In this document: positions 7,120 through 56,270 of the stretch, one piece after another
How positions within the stretch are numbered: position 1 is the first letter of the stretch
Layout: each line of letters opens with the position of its first letter
NCBI RefSeq assembly: GCF_963576615.1
Contig: NC_088717.1
Location: forward strand, 50,569,026-50,633,025
Direction: 5' to 3'
DNA: 64,000 nt
Source: Watersipora subatra
Lineage: Eukaryota > Bryozoa > Gymnolaemata > Cheilostomatida > Watersiporidae
Made by a program: the position numbers and the translations under genes
Notes under the pieces: model-generated
Told to the model about the DNA's origin: nothing
The model's input: the letters and a program-made list of their open reading frames with translations, nothing else
Databases searched by the model: none

Positions 7120-8640
7120 AGTTACGCGCAAACTCCCATAAGACAGGAATCGAACAGAGAACCCATAGGCCAGTGTATTCATAGATCGATATTCTCCATT
7201 AGCAAATTGTGCATTAATAGATATCCACCCAGAGGTGACAAGGTAAAGAAATTCACAATGATGGTTATAACCTCCATGTATTAAAAGTACCACTAAAGAT
7301 AATATGCTAATAGGGAAGCAACTTCAACCTGTACTAAAACATTATCTGTGGCCAGAAATGTCTTCATTACAATACTCCAAAACTAAGATCTAACTCCACC
7401 TAGTCTCTCTATTGCCTCTACCTAGTATGTCTATTCATAAATATCTCATGTGAAGTGATGTTGTTAACATTCACTCGCTCGCATTAAAAACACTGACAGG
7501 GAAATATGCAAGTGACCCTACTCTAAAAAATTATATAGATGTATTTGATAACTGGGATCAAAGCTATTCCACACTTTCCAGCGTGTAAAGGAATATTTAG
7601 ATATGCAACGATATTTTGAAATACCTTAAGGAATGGGTTTCGATGTGGACATAAAGTTTTAGGTGTTAGAAACCAGTATTTTATACAAATTAATATTATC
7701 CTGAGCAAATATTTAACTTATCAAAAGAAGCAAAACAAATTTTAGCACACAAATAATCAAGACCAACATAAAATGCTCAGTAATCTATTACGATACCATA
7801 ACATAATATAGTAATGTGAAATAATTGTTATTCACTATGAAAAAGCACTATTAAGACTTGAACAATATCTCATATAACAAATATCAGGAGAAAGTTACTT
7901 AACATGTAAAAAAGAACTATAACTTGGGGTAATATAACCTTACATGTAGGTAAGCTAGTTTCTCTTTATGCTGTCAATGTCTAAGCAGCGCACAGATTTT
8001 TCAATCGAACAAAATTTATTTGATGATACCAAGTTGTTTTCAAATGAAACTACTACGCAATATGACCAGTTGTTTTTATGCAACTTCTGAAGACGGGTGT
8101 GCGGAAGCCTCGTACAATTGTAAAGATAAGTCTGTTTTATGTTACATGGAACTAACATAAGTCAAGAGGAACCATTCCAAGTTCAGCGATGATACATATT
8201 CAACTTGTAAATGTTGTCCAAATGTAATATTACTCAGTCCTCAGAATTAATTTAATGACCGCTTGAAAAGACAATAAAATTGTAAACTTCACTTGAAACA
8301 AAATGGAAACACAAAGTTAATTTTTACTAGTATATAAGCTGAGTAATGGTTGAAAGTTTCATTTAAAGTAAATTACTCATAAACATGTGCGATTCATTGA
8401 GAGACCAGCATTCTCTTCTGTAGCAGAGAATGCCAACTATTCTCACCGGTCTCCTGACCCTAACATAACATCTGCTGTGACAATGAACTGTGCGAGAAGC
8501 CTATTATGTTACTCAATATCTTATTGGGCTTTAGACAGTTCTACCTGCGCTCTAGAGCTACCTGCGTGCATTGACCCTAGTAAACCAATTACGGTAATAA
8601 CATGAAAAATACTTATCCCTGCTATTATCTTCATAACATA
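7120..8640. other. No gene recognised
   Basis: AT-rich, short chance frames only. 7125-7185 has a weak minus-strand B-box-like motif. Confidence 0.45.
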
Positions 8641-10640: not shown

Positions 10641-21873
<11,233 letters not shown>

Positions 21874-27709: not shown

Positions 27710-29040
27710 CAGTGGTTCCCAACTACCTTGGAGCTACGGACCCCCAGAGCTCTTTATTTAAAAGTCATGGACCCCTTTATAAACATCATAATATATGGTG
27801 TTTATAACAATGCATTGTAAATTGGCGTGCATTATAAATTAGAATAATATAAGAGTTAATAGATTTGAGATGTTTCTATTTATTTACTTATATGAAGCAA
27901 TGCTATACTAAATTGCTTTGACTGTTAATTTTCAGTAGTCAGTTTGTTAGTTGGATGGATTGTACTTTTTATTTTTCACCAAATTCTCAATCTTAGGGGA
28001 AATGGTTGACAAAGCGCATCGCATGTTGCCTTCAAGTCCCAGTCGGTTTCGTTGTTTCAATTTGAGAACAACCATGGAGGAGAAAGCAGACTCGCATAAG
28101 TATGTAGACACAAATGGGAGCAGAGTTTGAAGGGCGTATTTGGCTGCCTGTGGATATGAATGAATCATAGAAAGCCAAAATTCTTCAATGGTTTTATCTT
28201 CATAAACATCTTTGGTTATTTTACCGATCTGCTGGTTTCATTTTGTTTTCAAATAAATATAGTTGCTAAATAATGTGACAATTATGATCAGTCAGCTGCC
28301 ATTAACAAGCATTCATGATATTAATAGTCAACATTGTGAAATGACCCAAATTTGGCTTTACATTTGGATTTTGAGTATGAAAACTACACTGCACAGCTTT
28401 ACCGCTGTCCCATCCTATTGGCCAGGTCAAACAATGTGACAATGACAAAAGACTGCCATTTTATATTATAGGTGGAAAAATATTAATTAAAAACTAGAAA
28501 AAAAAGGCCGTTGTTCGGGTGATTTCGGGTAAATTATATTTAAATTTAAGCATATACTAAGACCCCTGAAGAAAATAAAAAAATTGGTAAAAATAAGTAA
28601 GCTGAAATGTCTTATTTTCCATGGATCTTAGTATATCGCTGAAATTTAAGAGGGACAGAGAAAATTACGTGTTTGCCGGTTACAGGTTGTGTTGTTTTGT
28701 ACTACTAACCGAAAATCGGGTACTATCCAGCGATTGACGCACATAGGTGATAAAAGTCTAGACACAGAAGCCTAACAAGACAATGCGACCACCCCGCGGG
28801 AATTGCATTAGCCCCGAAACCAAGGCTAGCACAATCCCAACAGACTTCAATCATTAAACTCCGCCCATATGATAGCCGTCGCCTATCCTTTTAAGGTTTT
28901 ATATCATTGATCCAACCACTATGACAGAAATAGCTGTAAATATCTAGCTAGAAAAACCAATACTGGCACCAGCCTGTGGACCCCCTTAAAGCCTCCTGTG
29001 GACCCATATGGGTCCATGGATCACCAGTTGGGAACCACTG
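27710..29040 (-). mobile_element. hAT element with 8-bp target duplication and transposase remnant
   Basis: Ends are CAGTGGTTCCCAACT at 27710 and its inverse AGTTGGGAACCACTG ending at 29040, flanked by CTCTAAAT (27702-27709) and CTTTAAAT (29041-29048). An 8-bp duplication and CAGTG-type termini define hAT. At 27947-28220 the minus strand encodes the end of a transposase: TIEEFWLSMIHSYPQAAKYA, then LLPFVSTYLCESAF and RNRLGLEGNMRCALS, which is the C-terminal hAT dimerisation region of the ZBED/SCAND3-like group. The rest of the transposase is missing, so the copy is non-autonomous. Confidence 0.88.
27947..28220 (-). pseudogene. hAT transposase C-terminal (dimerisation) fragment
   Basis: Open minus-strand frame ending at TGA 27947-27949. 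The motifs FW..., STYLCE.AFS, KxRNRL and MRCALSTISPKI follow the hAT family dimerisation domain in order. Only about 90 residues remain of a protein that is normally 500-700 long; the zinc-finger and catalytic parts are absent. Confidence 0.85.
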
Positions 29041-47614: not shown

Positions 47615-50600
47615 ATGTCTAAGTCAGTACTAACAGATAGTCGACAAGATTTAGTTGATTTAGTTAAACGTAAAAACGAGCTCGCTGTAAGTAACTTTCT
47701 TAGCATTAATTGGTTCTAAGATGAAACTAACTGTCGATTTGTTGTCTGGCCGTAGATGCTCATTGCTCACACACATTGATGTTGATATAGTAGTGTACAG
47801 GTTTAAATTTGTTAATTTATAAACAAACATTGATTGCAGTTAGCGTTTGAACACTAGAATCTCAAGATGTTATAATGATTTAGCCTGTTTTGTCGGCACT
47901 TGTCAATGGAGTTTCAATCAAACTTGGAATAAATAAGTGGTGGTACGGCTTGTGGATTTTGTTTTGGTATTTCATTTTTTGCCAGTACATAGTAAAAATC
48001 AGTTTGGTATTTTACTAGCATCTGACAATTTCTGTATTAAAAGTTTTAGCTAGTCTAATGCGATTAGGCCTATATATTTAGTATTAAATTAATAACCATC
48101 ACCAGTTTTAGCCATAGTCTAAAGCCAACTTATAGACCTACATACACCCCTTTTTATTGAAACTATACGTACAGTATTAAACCTATGAATACATGCAAAA
48201 ATTTGTCAATAGCATATGCTATATCACATCACTCTTTCTTTGCCAATTTTATGACAGCATATGTATTATTTTGTTATTTTAATAAAGGATTCATTGGCGA
48301 ACTTGGAAAGACAAATTTACAAATTTGAAGGCAGTTATTTAGAAGATACTCAGCTGTATGGAAACATCATAAAGGGATGGGATCGTTTCTTATCAGTCAA
48401 CAAGTGAGTCGGCCCTAACAAGAATTCAATATTTAGTTGATACAAAAGGGGTTAGCGTGAAAAAAATCAAGGGATTTAAATCATGATTTTTTTTACGAAA
48501 AGCTCACAATTTTTTCCATAATTTTGCAAATTTAGCGTTTCTTGACAAACAATCTAGTTTTGATGTGTGTAACAAATCTGTGAACACTCTTTTGTCATGA
48601 CATGAGTTAGCAAGTGTTATAGAGATACTTGACTGCATGTGTAGTGCAATGCTACAGAAGGATCTTTGAAGTTACCAAGTGTGAGTTAATTTAGTAAATG
48701 TTAAAGCAGTATTAATTGTGAGGTAGCAACTGTAACTGGTTTTCCTTCACTGTTCTCTTTAGTACACAACATCATGACATCAAGCTCTTTACTGCAATCA
48801 GCTCATGTGCAAACATTAAAAGTATATTCTCCACCTTTAGCTTTATTCATTAAAAAAGAGATCGGCTAGGCGCTGAAACACCAGCAAGCTGGTATTTATA
48901 TTTCGCATGATCAATCGGTCCAAGGAGGATTGTGTCTTTTTAGTCTTTGACTTATTCAAACTTTGTGCTGAAACTGCTAGTAGCTCTACTCCACTAAGTT
49001 AGATGTAGTTTGCACATGTTATAATTTTAGGCTCTGTATGGCTGTTGATCGCAAAAATAAAAAGAATTTGTAAAATTAAAGTAGACCAGTCACTAATGAT
49101 GAAAAGTAAGTTCATTCTGATGTACAATGCAATACGCACACAATATGCATCAGCAAAAACATTAAATATATCAAAAAATCATATAGCCTACATCAATTTA
49201 AGTTGAAAAAATCAGGGTTGTTCCAACCCTGGATAAAAATTGTTAGTGTATAGGTATGGCTGGCTATGTGCCATGACTAAAAGCATAGCTGATGCATGTA
49301 CAGACATTTGCTGTGGCTGCATCCATCGATGCTACTAAACAATACGTCATGTCACCAAAGTAGGTTGACCAATGATAGTTCGTCTCTGGTTTGTGAAGCC
49401 CGTGGCGTCCTTGCCGGATGGTCCAATGCGTACGTTCATTCATTTAAGCGTCGATAAGATATTTGTTTTCTATAATAGATCGTAAAAGATTTGTGGCAGC
49501 AATGGAATTTGTAAAACTATTTGCATTTTTGTTTTTGCTGAAAACAGATGATACTCACTTACATGACAGATTATATTGTAGGAAAAAGGAGTTTGAACAT
49601 TCTTAATTCTCAAAGAAATTATCTGAAATGTTATCCAAACAGTGTTAGTTTGTGATATTAATGATCATGAGTTACGAAAAGGTTTATTCTTCTCTATTTA
49701 TAAATAGTTTAATGATCTTCTAAAAGCCAATTTTACACCAAAGTTAGTCGATATAAATTTTAGCCAATGACAAAGTTGCAGTTTAGTTTAGTAAAATACA
49801 TACTAAAACTTAGCTTTTAATATGTATTCAGTAAGCTAAATTCGTTTAAGTTAAATTCCACGTTTATATTTTACATGTCTTGTCGTTTATATTTTACGTC
49901 TGTCTTGAAGGTAAGAATTTGTAATGTTACATTTTGTTTTCAGATCATAACCCGTAAATACACTGAAGTTACTGTAGGTAACTAACTATAATTACTAAGG
50001 CTAAAATATTATTTTGTTACTAATTTTTAATATGTACATTACGCAAATAAAATTTTGATGATTTTTACCAGGGAGTGTTTTCATTCAATAATTACCGGGG
50101 TTTCTATACCCCTCTATATGACATTTTCACCTTACGATGCCAACATTAAAAATAATTTAAATCATATGGCGGGTGTCCATTGTAACACATTTTTCGTTAT
50201 TTTTTTGAAGTTTTAAAAGCTACTTTAAAAAAAACTAGCTTTTAAAAAACTTTCGGTTTATTGTGAATGCGGAAGATAATCGTCATGTGCTAATAATCGT
50301 TTTGGATGATTTTCGTGCACCCCTTCACTCACGTGTGGCTCAGTCCTCACTGAGAAAATTCAATCAATTGAACTTTGCGAACCACATCACACAATGAGCT
50401 AAGTCTAGCGATTTGCTCATTCTAATGACTCATATGCTTCTTGGCAAACATGTCACATTGCTGGTGTTGCCTTACGGGGTGCACCAGTACACTCCTTTTG
50501 TGTTCCTGTAGAGACCAGGTGTGAATGATGCAGTTGTATGCTTAAGATAGCCTCAAGGGCTCCATGTTTATGAACAAGTTATACTTTTGAAAGGGTACAT

Positions 50601-53600
50601 GTCCTCTTTGGAATCGCATTTCTTTATGGTATATGTCTTCCTTTTGCATTTATTAATCCCTTCGCAGTCTAGTCGGAAGAGATCGTCAGGTGTGCTGATA
50701 AAGCAGAGAGGTCATGTATTTACATAACTATTTTACTATGTTGGAAGTGAATAGTTAGCGCAAGTGGAAGTGTCGGGCTACTAAACCGAATGTTACAGGT
50801 TTGAGCCCTGTATGAAGCAATAATTCACCCCAACCTTTGGCCGTGCCTTCAGACACACACTATTTCCTCCATGACTGATAGTTTGTAGAATAAAGTCAAA
50901 CCCAGTGTTTACACCTTTTTTCAGAAATACACCAGCTACTAGTAAAGCGGACAAACGAAATAGAAAGTTTAAAGAAGCAGATCGTCTCTTTTCAAAGTCA
51001 TCTGTGACATCGGCAGCGGTGAGTTCACAAGTAACCAAATGATCTTTATTTGTGATAGGTCAGGTTCAGTGGCAGCGTACAAAAAGAAATCCAATCAACC
51101 TTTTAATCTTTGGATTTTAACCATGATGCTTTGAAAGTCGGTACAAACCTGGGATAAGTGTTCATAAAGCTATCCATAGTCCATTTTAAAACGACATTTT
51201 TAACTTTTCTATTCATGCAAAAGAAGAATTTCTTGCTAGTGGTGTTATATTAGCACTCACCACGGTCTTCACTAGCTAAAGGAAGCTCTTCTTTACACCC
51301 CAGTATGTATATATACTTGGGCATCCATAAGTTGAGAAGTCTACATAATCCTATAGGCTCGGTTTAAAGTGTGGCCTCCCTAAGCGTGCATCAATGCGTC
51401 TCTAGCCCAAGTTCCTACAGCATAGTCGGGCGTGTGAGAGATGCCTGCATGTACAACAAGCAGTTTAGCGTAATTTGATAACCGCAGCTCAAAAGTTCAT
51501 GCATGACGTGTAAACATGGTGCAGACTTTTTCAGTGTTTGTGGAGTCTGTTTTCAGCTTTCGATTCTCTACCATAATAGTTATAGCTATAATTCTCTGCC
51601 ATGTTGGGTCACCATAACAACATAGCATGTTGACTAGATAGTGCACGAGAATGTTGCCAATTTTGTTAGTGCTTTTGTCTCATGTTCACTCATTGGCGTC
51701 AACATTGTAATTCATTAGTCAATGTTTTGGTGAATATTTGATCACCTTATGTCATAGCTTGCCGCTTGCATTGCACATGCTTTGTTTCTGAAACTGATTT
51801 TATGTTCTTCTAACATCAAAATAATTGCTGCAAAGTCACATATCATTATTATATTGGTATAAATTTAAGTAGTTTTAAAATGCTATCATTTAACGTTTAA
51901 ACCTAACAAGCTAGCATTTCTCTTCAAACAACTAGTATCTTGGCATATGAGTTACAAAAACTTAGGAAATTGTTTTTTTTTTCTAGGAAATAGATTCTTG
52001 GACTGAACAATCTTGTTACCTGTCTAATGACAAACCAAGCTTTATTCCTCCGTCAATATCGGTAGTTAGGTTTCAGCTAATATAGTTCTCATAGACTGGA
52101 GAACCGGCAGAATGCTAGCTATACCTTTTTATTGCGTCTGAAGACTTCATTGAAGCAATTCATCTGCATTTTAATCAAAGGTTAACGGACAAGAGATGTT
52201 GCTCTTGCTTAGTTTAAATCTTTAAATTCTCAATTTAAATTGAACTTTTTACAGGTGTTTTTTGTTGAACATCAAATTGGGTCACGGAAACTGCAATTAC
52301 ACATTGTTCTCTTGTAACAATTGCTAACTATTATATAATGAGTTTCAAGTGCCTATGACGCTTAAAGGTAAGGAGGACCTTTATTTCACTTACAGTAGTT
52401 TAATATAGGGTATATGGGTGTAAAACGGGCTAGTGGATGTGATATCATTCATGGAGCTTCAGTAGCCATGATTGCCGTTACAACCTAGAGAACTATATTC
52501 TCTATCTGACAGGCAGTACAAGGTTACCTTGAGCCATACGAAGCATCAAGATCCAAGACTGCTGAATCTACCATATCTGTCTCACCTAATGCACGTAAGT
52601 TATTATCACCTCCTTATCTGTCTCTGCTAATAGATGGGAGTTATCATCACTACCATCCTTATCTGTCTCACCTAATACATGGGAGTTATCATCAATACCA
52701 TCCTTGTCGGTCTCACCTAATACATGGGAGTTATCATCACTACCATCCTCATCTATCTCACTTAATACATGGGAGTTATCATCACTACCATCTTTATCTG
52801 TCTCTGCTAAGAAATGGGAGTTATCATCACGACCATCCTTATCTGTCTCGCCTAATACATGGGAGTTATCATCACTACCATCCTTATCTGTCTCACCTAA
52901 TTCATGTGAGTTATCATCACTACCATCCTTATCTATCTCACCTAATACATGGGAGTTATCATCACTACCATCCTTATCTGTCTCACCTAATTCATGTGAG
53001 TTATCATCACTACCATCCTTATCTATCTCACCTAATACATGGGAGTTATCATCACTACCATCCTTATATATCTCACCTAATACATAGGAGTTATCATCAC
53101 TACCATCTTTATCTGTCTCTGCTAAGAAATGGGAGTTATCATCACGACCATCCTTATCTGTCTCGCCTAATAAATGGGAGTTATCATCGCGACCATCCTT
53201 ATCTGTCTCACCTAATTCATGTGAGTTATCATCACTACCATCCTTATCTATCTCACCTAATACATGGGAGTTATCATCACTACCATCCTTATCTATCTCA
53301 CCTAATACATGGGAGTTATCATCACTACCATCCTTATCTATCTCAGCCATAATTATTGCAGTCTACTAGCATTTTTCATAAAACGACTCACATGATATTG
53401 TGGTCATTCCTTTCTTACATTTGCTACCGGTACACCAGGTGTGAGCAATTGTAGCTATTAAGTACACTGCTGTAAACTAGAGATGCTTATTGCATGAAAA
53501 AAAATTTTAACAGAAGATAAAAAATCGACATTGAAGAACAATTCTGCAACTCCAACCACTCACCGCTACATTCTCACCCACTTTTGGTGATGTTTGTAGC

Positions 53601-54246
53601 TGTGTAGGATGTTTGGTGATGTTTGTAGCTGTGTAGGATGTTTGGTGATGTTTGTAGCTGTGTAGGATGTTTGGTGATGTTTGTAGCTGTGTAGGATGTT
53701 TAGTGATGTTTGTAGCTGTGTAGGATGTTTGGTGATGTTTGTAGCTGTGTAGGATGTTTGGTGATGTTTGTAGTTGTGTAGGATGTTTGGTGATGTTTGT
53801 AGCTGTGTAGGATGTTTGGTGATGTTTGTAGCTGTGTAGGATGTTTGGTGATGTTTGTAGCTGTGTAGGATGTTTCGCTTGATCTGAGCGTTGTATCCAT
53901 AATCAAGTTTTGTGGACGTTAGTCTTAAAACATTCTGGCAGTCCGACCACCTCAAACACCACAAATAATTGAAAATGATAAAAAATTACCGTTAATTTTT
54001 TATAAATTTTACTGTAATGAAGTATTTTTATGGCTATACCCTGTGGGTGTCTCTATTGTAGAAGGAGAGGAGAACTCAATGGACAGTCCCATACCTACAA
54101 CGATACGTTCCAAGGGCTCAAACAAAAGGGCTCATGCCTCCCCTCCATCCAGCTCATCTAAAAATAAGCTTAAGAAACAAAAGAAGCTGGAAGGGTCTTC
54201 TAGCAAAAAGTCCAAAAAGTCGCGAGACAGCGGTAAACTACGATAG
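47615..54246 (+). CDS. MEAF6: MEAF6 / EAF6, subunit of MYST histone acetyltransferase complexes, 5 exons
   Basis: Exons: 47615-47686, 48288-48403, 50925-51018, 52513-52594 and 54062-54246; 549 nt, 182 residues plus TAG, phases consistent. The start [20 protein letters not shown] leads into NELA, then exon 2 gives [20 protein letters not shown] and [13 protein letters not shown], the near-invariant coiled-coil core of the EAF6 family. Exon 3 holds [20 protein letters not shown], matching the human [20 protein letters not shown] segment. The C-terminus is serine/lysine-rich ([18 protein letters not shown]), as in vertebrate MEAF6. In the family this protein is a scaffold subunit of NuA4/TIP60 and of MOZ/MORF and HBO1 complexes. 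Human MEAF6 has extra residues between exons 3 and 4, so a skipped exon in 51019-52512 is possible, though none was recognised. An AATAAA lies at 54447-54452. The exon 4 donor is the first unit of a 45-bp tandem array. Confidence 0.94.
48410..49730. other. MEAF6 intron 2, first part
   Basis: AT-rich intron; no exon or repeat recognised. Confidence 0.45.
49735..50182 (+). mobile_element. Tigger/pogo-like element, family 1 copy D, 3' part only
   Basis: In MEAF6 intron 2. Colinear with the last ~430 bp of copy A: shared ACATACTAAAACYTAGCTT, then the TACCxGGGGTTTCTATACCC region and a diverged end GGTGTCCATTG before TA. No 5' end was found. Confidence 0.6.
50751..50818 (+). repeat. tRNA-like repeat in MEAF6 intron 2
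   Basis: TTAGCGCAAGTGGAAGTG, GTCGGGCTACTAAACCGAA (anticodon-arm-like) and ACAGGTTTGAGCCCTGT (paired T arm). The best tRNA-like fold in the window, but without a paired acceptor stem. Confidence 0.45.
51019..52512. other. MEAF6 intron 3
   Basis: No exon matching the extra residues of vertebrate MEAF6 was recognised here. Confidence 0.45.
52574..53349. repeat. 45-bp minisatellite starting at the MEAF6 exon 4 donor
   Basis: The phase marker TGTCTC/TATCTC occurs at 52578, then 52619, then every 45 bp to 53339. The first unit is 41 bp long and contains the exon 4 end and its GTAAGT donor (52595). Later units have GGGAGT or GTGAGT at that spot. All units after the first are exactly 45 bp, so the array is open in several frames on both strands. 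Confidence 0.92.
53583..53875. repeat. 29-bp minisatellite in MEAF6 intron 4, 10 copies
   Basis: GTGATGTTTGTAGCTGTGTA units at 29-bp spacing from 53587 to 53848, nearly identical. Confidence 0.92.
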
Positions 54247-54446
54247 CTCCGTGATGCTTCAGAGATGTCGACAACGGACGATCTCACATGTAGAACTCTT
54301 ATCTTGTGTGCATTACTAGATGTAGGTAGTAGGACACCCAATAAGTAGTGCATTCATCACATTTAATTGGTAGTTTATGTTTATAAACAACTCTGTACAT
54401 AGATGGAATGTTCCATAGCATGCTGATCACACAAGTTTGGACTGTA

Positions 54447-54452
54447 AATAAA
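54447..54452 (+). promoter_or_regulatory. Candidate poly(A) signal of MEAF6
   Basis: AATAAA about 200 bp after the MEAF6 stop codon on the same strand; position and sequence suit a 3'-end processing signal. Confidence 0.5.
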
Positions 54453-54459
54453 TCGCTGA

Positions 54460-56270
54460 ATGCAAGAGAATTTTCTGCTTCCTTTACTGATATGAAGAAA
54501 GGTCGCATTAACTTATTACTACACTGATTTCTCACGCACTATGTTTTCATGATGTGGTTGATTCACAAGGTGGCTGCAATGGAAACAGCATAAATCTGCA
54601 AGTCTAGTTTTGTTACTCACAAATTTCTTACTGAATGTTTCGTGCTCGTGAATGATGGAAATAGCCTTTGCTCGGGTTCAAGTAGATGCTACGCAAGCTA
54701 TTCCATTTTAAACAATTATCACATTTCAATCTTTCTTACTTCGATTCGAGCAGTTTCCAATGTGCTGCTATGACATCTGACATAGAAATCAATGTCTTTT
54801 TTAACAAAGCTCCCACGTTAATCCTCAACATTCAAATGTCCATTGAAACACTTATTTCACGGTAACTACATGAGTGCACAACTCCAAATCTACATCACAG
54901 TGATCATATCAAGTTTATCAATGGGCTCTTAACTAATCAGAGAGTGAACCCTGATTCACTCATGTACAAAGTATTGCCCGTGAAGGATTTTTTCTTTTAA
55001 AAGTGAATGCTGATGTCTTATGTGGTGTTATATTCATGACCAGCTAACTCAGAATGCATCGCCATACATCAGATAATTCAATGTGTAGTATCTGAGTGAG
55101 TAGCTTGTCTGACTCAGTAATCTGTCTAGATATCTACTATCTTGCCAGACTTCCTTTCTCTCCACAACTACTTGTAATTTGCGATGGACTTGTACAATGC
55201 ACTTGTAAGATATACATGTACTTGTATGATATACTTGTAAGATATACTTGTATGATGTACTTGAACGATGTACTTGTGTGAGTTATTTGCACAATGTACT
55301 TGTACGCTATACTTGCACTTGTCAGCTTCAACTTTGCTGTAGTTCTCTTTCCTTCTCTGCTGTCTACCTCTCACAGCAACTATGTTACCGCTTGAAATGG
55401 ACAATCTGAGGAACACAAGAACGTTTTCAGTAGTTAGCAAATATGTTATCTGTCTCATTTGCAATCCCCTGTTGTTCCTCATTGTTTTTTAACTTTCGAC
55501 ACTCAGATGTTGATACCATGATTTCCACTATTAGGTAGCCTTTTAGGTAAAAATCACATAATCCTATACCATTTCATTTTCATTTTTAGTTGATTTTTGA
55601 CCTACCCCATTGATTAAACATCGTAATGTGTTCTCTGTAAGCCAGCTGAAATTTCATTTAGTATAATGGCCGATCAAATATAGTCAAATTTTATGTTATA
55701 GCATAGCACTCACTTTTTGGTATCAGTTAGACATCCACTCCACAATTAAACGCTATCACTACAGAAATATTGAATTATTGATCCCTCAGTAATAGTAGTG
55801 CTTTTCACTGCAGCCTATGAATACAGTCCCATTTCTAGTCCCATTCACAGTCCCAGTCCCATGATTATTTTGTCAGCTTAGTCAGAATGACAAGATTCAT
55901 TTGTCAACTAACAAATCAATGAAATGGCAATCGTCGCGACATCTAAATCTTCCACATCATTTTTTGGCCACCTGTTAATCTATAGCCATACCGACTGAAA
56001 CAAAAACAATGTACACCATACTTTTACATTGATAGCGTAAGCGGGCTTAGGTCACATTTTCTTTCTGTAGTAATTTGACGTAACGTGTTCCCTAACGTTG
56101 GGCATGCATTGTTACTGAGTGCAGTAACGAAGAAGGCTTTTGTTCACCTTCTCCGTTCTTCACCACTCATTTCGGCATTTTTTTATTTGCTAATAAAAAA
56201 CAAACGTGTAAGATAGAACACTAAATAATACATACATCACGCAACGAAGAGTTCTGTATTAACTCTGCAC
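54460..56270. other. Spacer between MEAF6 and the secreted-protein gene
   Basis: Holds the ~15-bp repeat at 55185-55325 and an AGTCCCA-rich patch near 55825-55860; no gene supported. Confidence 0.45.
55185..55325. repeat. ~15-bp tandem repeat (ATGTACTTGTATGAT-type)
   Basis: About nine degenerate units of TACTTGTANGATATAC. Confidence 0.75.

Follow-up and report, generated by a model that had tools for sequence, protein, structure and literature searches.

Tandem repeats that run across exon–intron boundaries were named "mirages" in lancelets, where they are described for globin genes, with Adh3 cited as a further case (PMC3087553). The lancelet genes reported in this way are the globins BflGb6/BflGb9, Adh3, troponin C and PGBD5, together with retinol dehydrogenase by citation (PMC3087553, PMC3902484); PGBD5 was added, and troponin C cited, in PMC3902484. 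Published unit lengths are 10–72 bp in Adh3 and 150–160 bp in the globins (PMC3087553), and both reports suggest that such arrays leave regular splicing undisturbed (PMC3087553, PMC3902484). In the human gene IFI6 (6-16/G1P3), several splice donors are supplied by a minisatellite (Turri 1995, as cited in PMC4526556 and PMC2572611), and two downstream repeat units act as donors to give three mRNA species (PMC4526556). Here we describe a related array in a stretch of 64,000 nucleotides from the bryozoan Watersipora subatra (contig NC_088717.1, positions 50,569,026 to 50,633,025, forward strand; hereafter the window, whose own numbering is used throughout). A 45-bp minisatellite lies across the predicted exon 4 donor junction of the gene MEAF6 and is in all likelihood a mirage, i.e., a junction duplicated into the intron and spliced out normally from the donor at 52595.

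The hallmark of a mirage, a unit that crosses the exon–intron boundary, is found at the predicted boundary of MEAF6, where unit 1 contains 21 exonic bases. As in lancelets, where mirages occur at 5′ as well as at 3′ boundaries, the bryozoan genome has such arrays at a donor (MEAF6) and at acceptors. Many, though not all, mirage units carry splice signals; in MEAF6, donor hexamers are present in unit 1 and in three of the 16 later units, i.e., in some units, a minority. Length instability, between haplotypes or in somatic cells, is another mirage trait, and the internal block duplications of the MEAF6 array suggest turnover. Unlike the lancelet cases, the gene is MEAF6, the units number 17, and an open frame runs into the array. 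The MEAF6 repeat resembles that of IFI6, as the latter is described in the sources above, in offering additional candidate donor sites (three GTGAGT); it differs in that most later units lack the donor GT and the remainder would shift the frame.

Variable internal tandem repeats at human exon–intron boundaries have been linked to new introns, often with a transcript that keeps the repeat (PMC2812944); as reported there, they lie in recent segmental duplications and have transcript support, whereas the evidence for the MEAF6 array is genomic. The variable number tandem repeat of ABCA7, whose length correlates with splicing, is described as intronic, with exon 19 skipping reported (PMC5954066), and is not a junction repeat, unlike the MEAF6 array. 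Intron gain by boundary duplication has been reported in potato (PMC4974935), and human MEAF6 is alternatively spliced by SRRM4 (PMC5891588), a route different from array-based splicing. A literature search pairing MEAF6 with minisatellite found no paper in the library covered. The class itself is already known from the lancelet mirages and IFI6; what is added here is the gene MEAF6 and the recurrence of such arrays in ordinary genes of one animal genome.

The 45-bp array at the predicted exon 4 donor

Five MEAF6 exons are predicted on the + strand, and their joined coding sequence is open over 549 nt (182 amino acids and a stop codon). The predicted protein contains the NuA4 domain PF09340 at residues 13–92, with an E-value of 1.6e-27 and 95.6 bits against a curated cut-off of 25. 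A search of the assembly (783.7 Mb, 239 contigs) with this family scored two candidates and returned one match, exon 2 of the same gene, and a search of solved structures by sequence with MEAF6 found no relative at E up to 0.001. With COX1, the assembly gave no match. All exon borders are predictions; below, a slash marks the splice junction.

47615..47686, + strand: MEAF6 exon 1 (coding part), predicted, donor GCT/GTAAGT
48288..48403, + strand: MEAF6 exon 2, predicted, donor CAA/GTGAGT; the exon matched by NuA4 genome-wide
50925..51018, + strand: MEAF6 exon 3, predicted, donor GCG/GTGAGT
52513..52594, + strand: MEAF6 exon 4, predicted; 26 bp (52568–52593) homologous to the repeat unit
52595..52600, + strand: GTAAGT, predicted to be the donor at which exon 4 is spliced (CAC/GTAAGT), read from the sequence
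52574..53345, + strand: 45-bp minisatellite across the exon 4 donor junction; 17.2 copies, 89% matches by Tandem Repeats Finder (TRF)
53583..53875, + strand: second minisatellite, in intron 4; 29 bp × 10.1, 98% matches by TRF
54062..54246, + strand: MEAF6 exon 5 including the stop codon, predicted

The array begins within exon 4, runs past the donor GTAAGT into intron 4, and fills about half of this last intron of 1467 bp; with the 29-bp array, about 70% of the intron is repeat. Unit 1 is 41 bp long (TATCTGTCTCACCTAATGCAC/GTAAGT...), the first 21 bases belonging to exon 4. Aligned with the unit consensus, exon 4 matches over 52568–52593 with one 4-base gap and a score of 39, against a maximum of 29 among 5000 mononucleotide shuffles (0/5000 reach the observed score), so that the array and the predicted MEAF6 splice junction have sequence in common, well beyond chance. 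The other four exons score 10–15 against the same consensus. A whole-genome search gives a single match for the array, and the 27-base core of the unit, at three or fewer mismatches, has at least 16 matches genome-wide, all of them within the MEAF6 array (a reversed control of the core has 0), by which a dispersed repeat is rejected.

Units 8–9 recur unchanged as units 10–11 and again as 15–16, and the mean difference between units is lowest at an offset of seven units. These multi-unit duplications suggest past turnover within the array, and its length is therefore likely to differ between individuals.

Donor sites within the array

At the place of the donor, the 16 later units read GGGAGT in 12, GTGAGT in three and AGGAGT in one, i.e., 13 of 16 are without the GT. 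The three GTGAGT hexamers are located as follows:

52906..52911, + strand: donor-like GTGAGT, unit 8; if used, exon 4 would be 311 nt longer and exon 5 out of frame
52996..53001, + strand: donor-like GTGAGT, unit 10; if used, exon 4 would be 401 nt longer and exon 5 out of frame
53221..53226, + strand: donor-like GTGAGT, unit 15; if used, exon 4 would be 626 nt longer and exon 5 out of frame

Among the four GTRAGT sites, only the donor at 52595 preserves the reading frame of exon 5. The extensions are all 2 modulo 3, the shifted frame of exon 5 stops at 54317, and the proteins predicted from the donors in units 8, 10 and 15 have 310, 340 and 415 amino acids, respectively. The original prediction had placed a 45-bp array at the exon 4 donor junction and named the gene MEAF6, both of which are borne out by the array boundaries, the shuffle comparison and the NuA4 match; its account of GTAAGT in unit 1 and GGGAGT in most later units also holds (12/16), and to it must be added the three GTGAGT hexamers and an AATAAA at 53169, which it did not list.

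The open frame through the array

Read onward from exon 4 through intron 4, the frame stays open from 52595 to the TAA at 53350–53352. The elements concerned are:

52510..53352, + strand: open reading frame, stop to stop, running across exon 4 and the array and ending in TAA (53350–53352)
53169..53174, + strand: AATAAA in unit 14, within the open frame, read from the sequence
52586..53362, − strand: antisense frame of the array, 258 amino acids, stop to stop

A hypothetical retained-intron form would have 373 amino acids, 252 of them beyond exon 4, including 70 His and 44 Tyr. The units contain 19 distinct substitutions relative to their consensus, which in the frame of exon 4 comprise 16 nonsynonymous and three synonymous changes and no stop, where 3.9 synonymous changes and 0.84 stops would be expected at random (probability of no stop, 0.42). 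The counts look neutral, and purifying selection on the long frame is rejected. The antisense frame stays open over 252 of its 257 codons, and a third frame is interrupted by a single stop within the array. Eight of the 19 changes are synonymous in the antisense frame against 3.7 expected (P = 0.019, uncorrected for six frames), an excess that is probably chance; with this uncorrected value and a Pfam match that stays below threshold (16 bits, where 27 are required), an antisense gene is rejected. For exon 4 plus the array frame, a Pfam search found no family at E up to 1.

For comparison, 20 stretches of 10 kb (200 kb) were sampled from the same genome as background, 12.5% of which is covered by arrays of period 10–120. 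Among the 21 large arrays of this sample (200 bp or longer, with 4 or more copies), six have a period divisible by three. In four of these six, one or more frames stay open over the array length to within 4 codons, and nine of the 36 frames are open to this extent overall. Because the substitutions are neutral, the antisense frame is nearly as open and background arrays are often open as well, the 252-codon tail needs no function, and it looks like a passive by-product of a stop-free 45-bp unit.

Two features of the predicted transcript would bear on the fate of such a form. A stop codon without a downstream exon junction can, as a general rule, escape nonsense-mediated decay; with no intron after intron 4, MEAF6 forms that retain it or extend exon 4 would have their stop in the last exon and could do so under this rule. 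The AATAAA at 53169 is followed, within 52501–54700, by the next one at 54447, and cleavage soon after 53169 would leave a transcript without an in-frame stop codon.

Junction arrays at other exons of the genome

Three further clear junction arrays were found in the same genome, all at acceptors, of SEPHS1-, RAP2- and RAB11-like exons. They are listed below, in the numbering of the fetched stretches (L029, L033, L070), with one additional array beside the SEPHS1-like exon.

L033:97-437: 71-bp × 4.8 array across the RAP2-like acceptor, ATAG/GTACAGAACAGTTTGCCTCTATGAGAGACCTCTATA
L029:7750-7985: 26-bp array across the SEPHS1-like acceptor, ending within the exon (7971-8164)
L070:548-942: 68-bp × 5.8 array across the predicted RAB11-like acceptor, gene on the − strand, five copies at 68-bp spacing
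L029:8219-9999: 41-bp array past the SEPHS1-like exon, same strand, beginning 54 bp beyond the donor GTAATT

At the RAP2-like locus, five copies of ATAGG(T/C)ACAGA, among them the real junction, are spaced 71 bp apart. The exonic stretch of the unit translates to GTEQFASMRDLY, a sequence identical to that in RAP2A (PDB 1kao, which we take to be the human protein). Conservation of this encoded segment marks the exon as the ancestral element, and growth from the junction into the intron is shown for this locus, as judged from the encoded residues. The SEPHS1-like exon, predicted at 7971-8164, matches selenide, water dikinase 1 (PDB 9hjt/3fd5, presumably human) with an E-value of 3.1e-17. Its array has GCAG/GCCC in seven units, again including the real junction, and GCAG/ACCT in one more; the residues PYNA, encoded by its exonic part, align with PDNA at three of four identical positions, which supports the exon as source here too. 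By analogy with these two exons, growth from the junction into the intron is likely, rather than proven, at MEAF6.

The 41-bp array beyond the SEPHS1-like exon has GTAAGT at a fixed register in 34 of the 43 units read, and these donor-like sites are nearer to consensus than the predicted real SEPHS1 donor. The exon itself is unlike the unit (score 13), and the array was not counted as a clear junction case; its flank resembles the unit with a score of 28 (0/2000 shuffles).

A first estimate of frequency comes from 60 exon loci fetched out of 150 Ras-family matches, which were hand-picked and not random. Large junction-spanning arrays are present in two of them (L033 and L070), both at the acceptor, i.e., 3.3% with a nominal 95% interval of 0.4–11.5% for this hand-picked sample. 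Exon ends were read through in four loci (L033, L036, L044 and L070) and taken from the ends of the profile match in the other 56, so misses are possible. Several arrays were not counted as junction-spanning: a 22-bp array just beyond a Rab donor (L036), a 15-bp array about 30 bp ahead of an acceptor (L044), and three of period 8–10 with 2.0–3.1 copies that touch match ends or lie within the exon (L033:708-733, L081:511-529, L082:406-425). An AT-rich array (L046) is also near a match end. Junctions as hotspots of array birth are not shown by this sample: if the 14 arrays that reach 90 bp and 2.5 copies in the 60 loci were seeded at random, 0.91 would be expected to span a junction, and two are seen (P = 0.23); the L080 array falls outside the 14, its best-scoring period having 2.0 copies. 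Inspection by eye, without a family search, of open-frame pieces beside 24 other large arrays recognized no further case.

Two other features of the window were recorded. An exon of NOA36 (which we take to be ZNF330) lies at about 14632–14746 on the − strand (PF06524, E = 2.9e-12), and its predicted donor is about 48 bp before a 17-bp array (13867–14583); the flank has no similarity to the array unit. A fragment of a hAT transposase C-terminal dimerisation domain is present at 27947–28237 on the − strand (PF05699, E = 9.8e-06).

Origin and splicing of the array

In the course of events that we favor, a stretch across the exon 4/intron 4 donor junction of MEAF6 would have been tandemly duplicated, and the junction copies would then have multiplied into intron 4. 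Splicing would most likely use the exon-proximal GTAAGT at 52595 and remove the array with the intron, leaving the 182-amino-acid MEAF6 as the normal product; we infer both this splicing and the direction from junction to array. Several points weigh against this account. Exon 4 lacks a reliable match to the tail of human MEAF6, its score being reached by 268 of 3000 shuffles. MEAF6 is the sole clear donor case, the other three clear cases being at acceptors. Alternative donor use may be possible at MEAF6, because GTRAGT is intact at four of the 17 donor places of the array, the working donor included, and unit splice signals of mirages could serve as cryptic sites (PMC3087553). That exon 4 has no demonstrable homology to human MEAF6 would also suit an array of intronic origin that took the place of the exon 4 end, which would then be repeat-derived; we consider this unlikely, as the exon is ancestral at both other loci where polarity can be judged, clearly in the RAP2-like case and with three of four residues identical in the SEPHS1-like one.

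The GTGAGT units might also be used at times as competing donors, giving proteins in which the lysine-rich MEAF6 tail is replaced by a frame-shifted one. MEAF6 exons 2 and 3 also have GTGAGT as their predicted donor, all three copies in the array are in register, the shifted frame of exon 5 continues to its stop, and IFI6 is a reported human precedent for repeat-unit donors (PMC4526556). Such use is nevertheless quite improbable, given that the native tail would never be kept, that most later units have no GT, and that the exon-proximal GTAAGT is, in our judgement, at least as near to consensus. Retention of intron 4 in some tissue, as a functional isoform with a His/Tyr-rich tail of 15-residue repeats whose length varies between individuals, would draw on the open frame, on the possible escape of a last intron from decay under the general rule, on the preservation of frame by changes of whole 45-bp units, and on the repeat-keeping transcripts often reported for human boundary repeats (PMC2812944). 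The neutral substitutions, the openness of background and antisense frames, the AATAAA within the frame, the lack of a Pfam family at E up to 1 and the normal splicing reported for mirage loci (PMC3087553, PMC3902484) argue otherwise, and we give this possibility hardly any credence. For the original prediction, this means that the open frame and its 252 added codons stand as described; growth of the array from the junction is supported in its direction by the RAP2-like and SEPHS1-like exons, the MEAF6 locus alone being unable to show it; and a meaningful long C-terminal isoform finds no support in the substitutions, the antisense frame or the background frames. Mirage duplication with normal splicing from 52595 remains the reading that we prefer.

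Implications

Arrays that copy splice sites have been suggested as one way in which novel introns and exon ends arise (PMC3087553, PMC4974935), and in the literature covered they are so far described from few genes. A broader proposal would hold that splice-junction minisatellites are common at donors and acceptors of conserved genes as a length-unstable supply of duplicate splice sites, and that donor competition or last-intron retention in MEAF6 produces individual-specific C-terminal tails that escape nonsense-mediated decay; we regard it as very unlikely. A genome in which two of 60 hand-picked exon loci from a single family carry junction arrays is nonetheless a good test ground for how the spliceosome chooses among similar sites, and is suited as well to asking how often such arrays turn into introns or isoforms.
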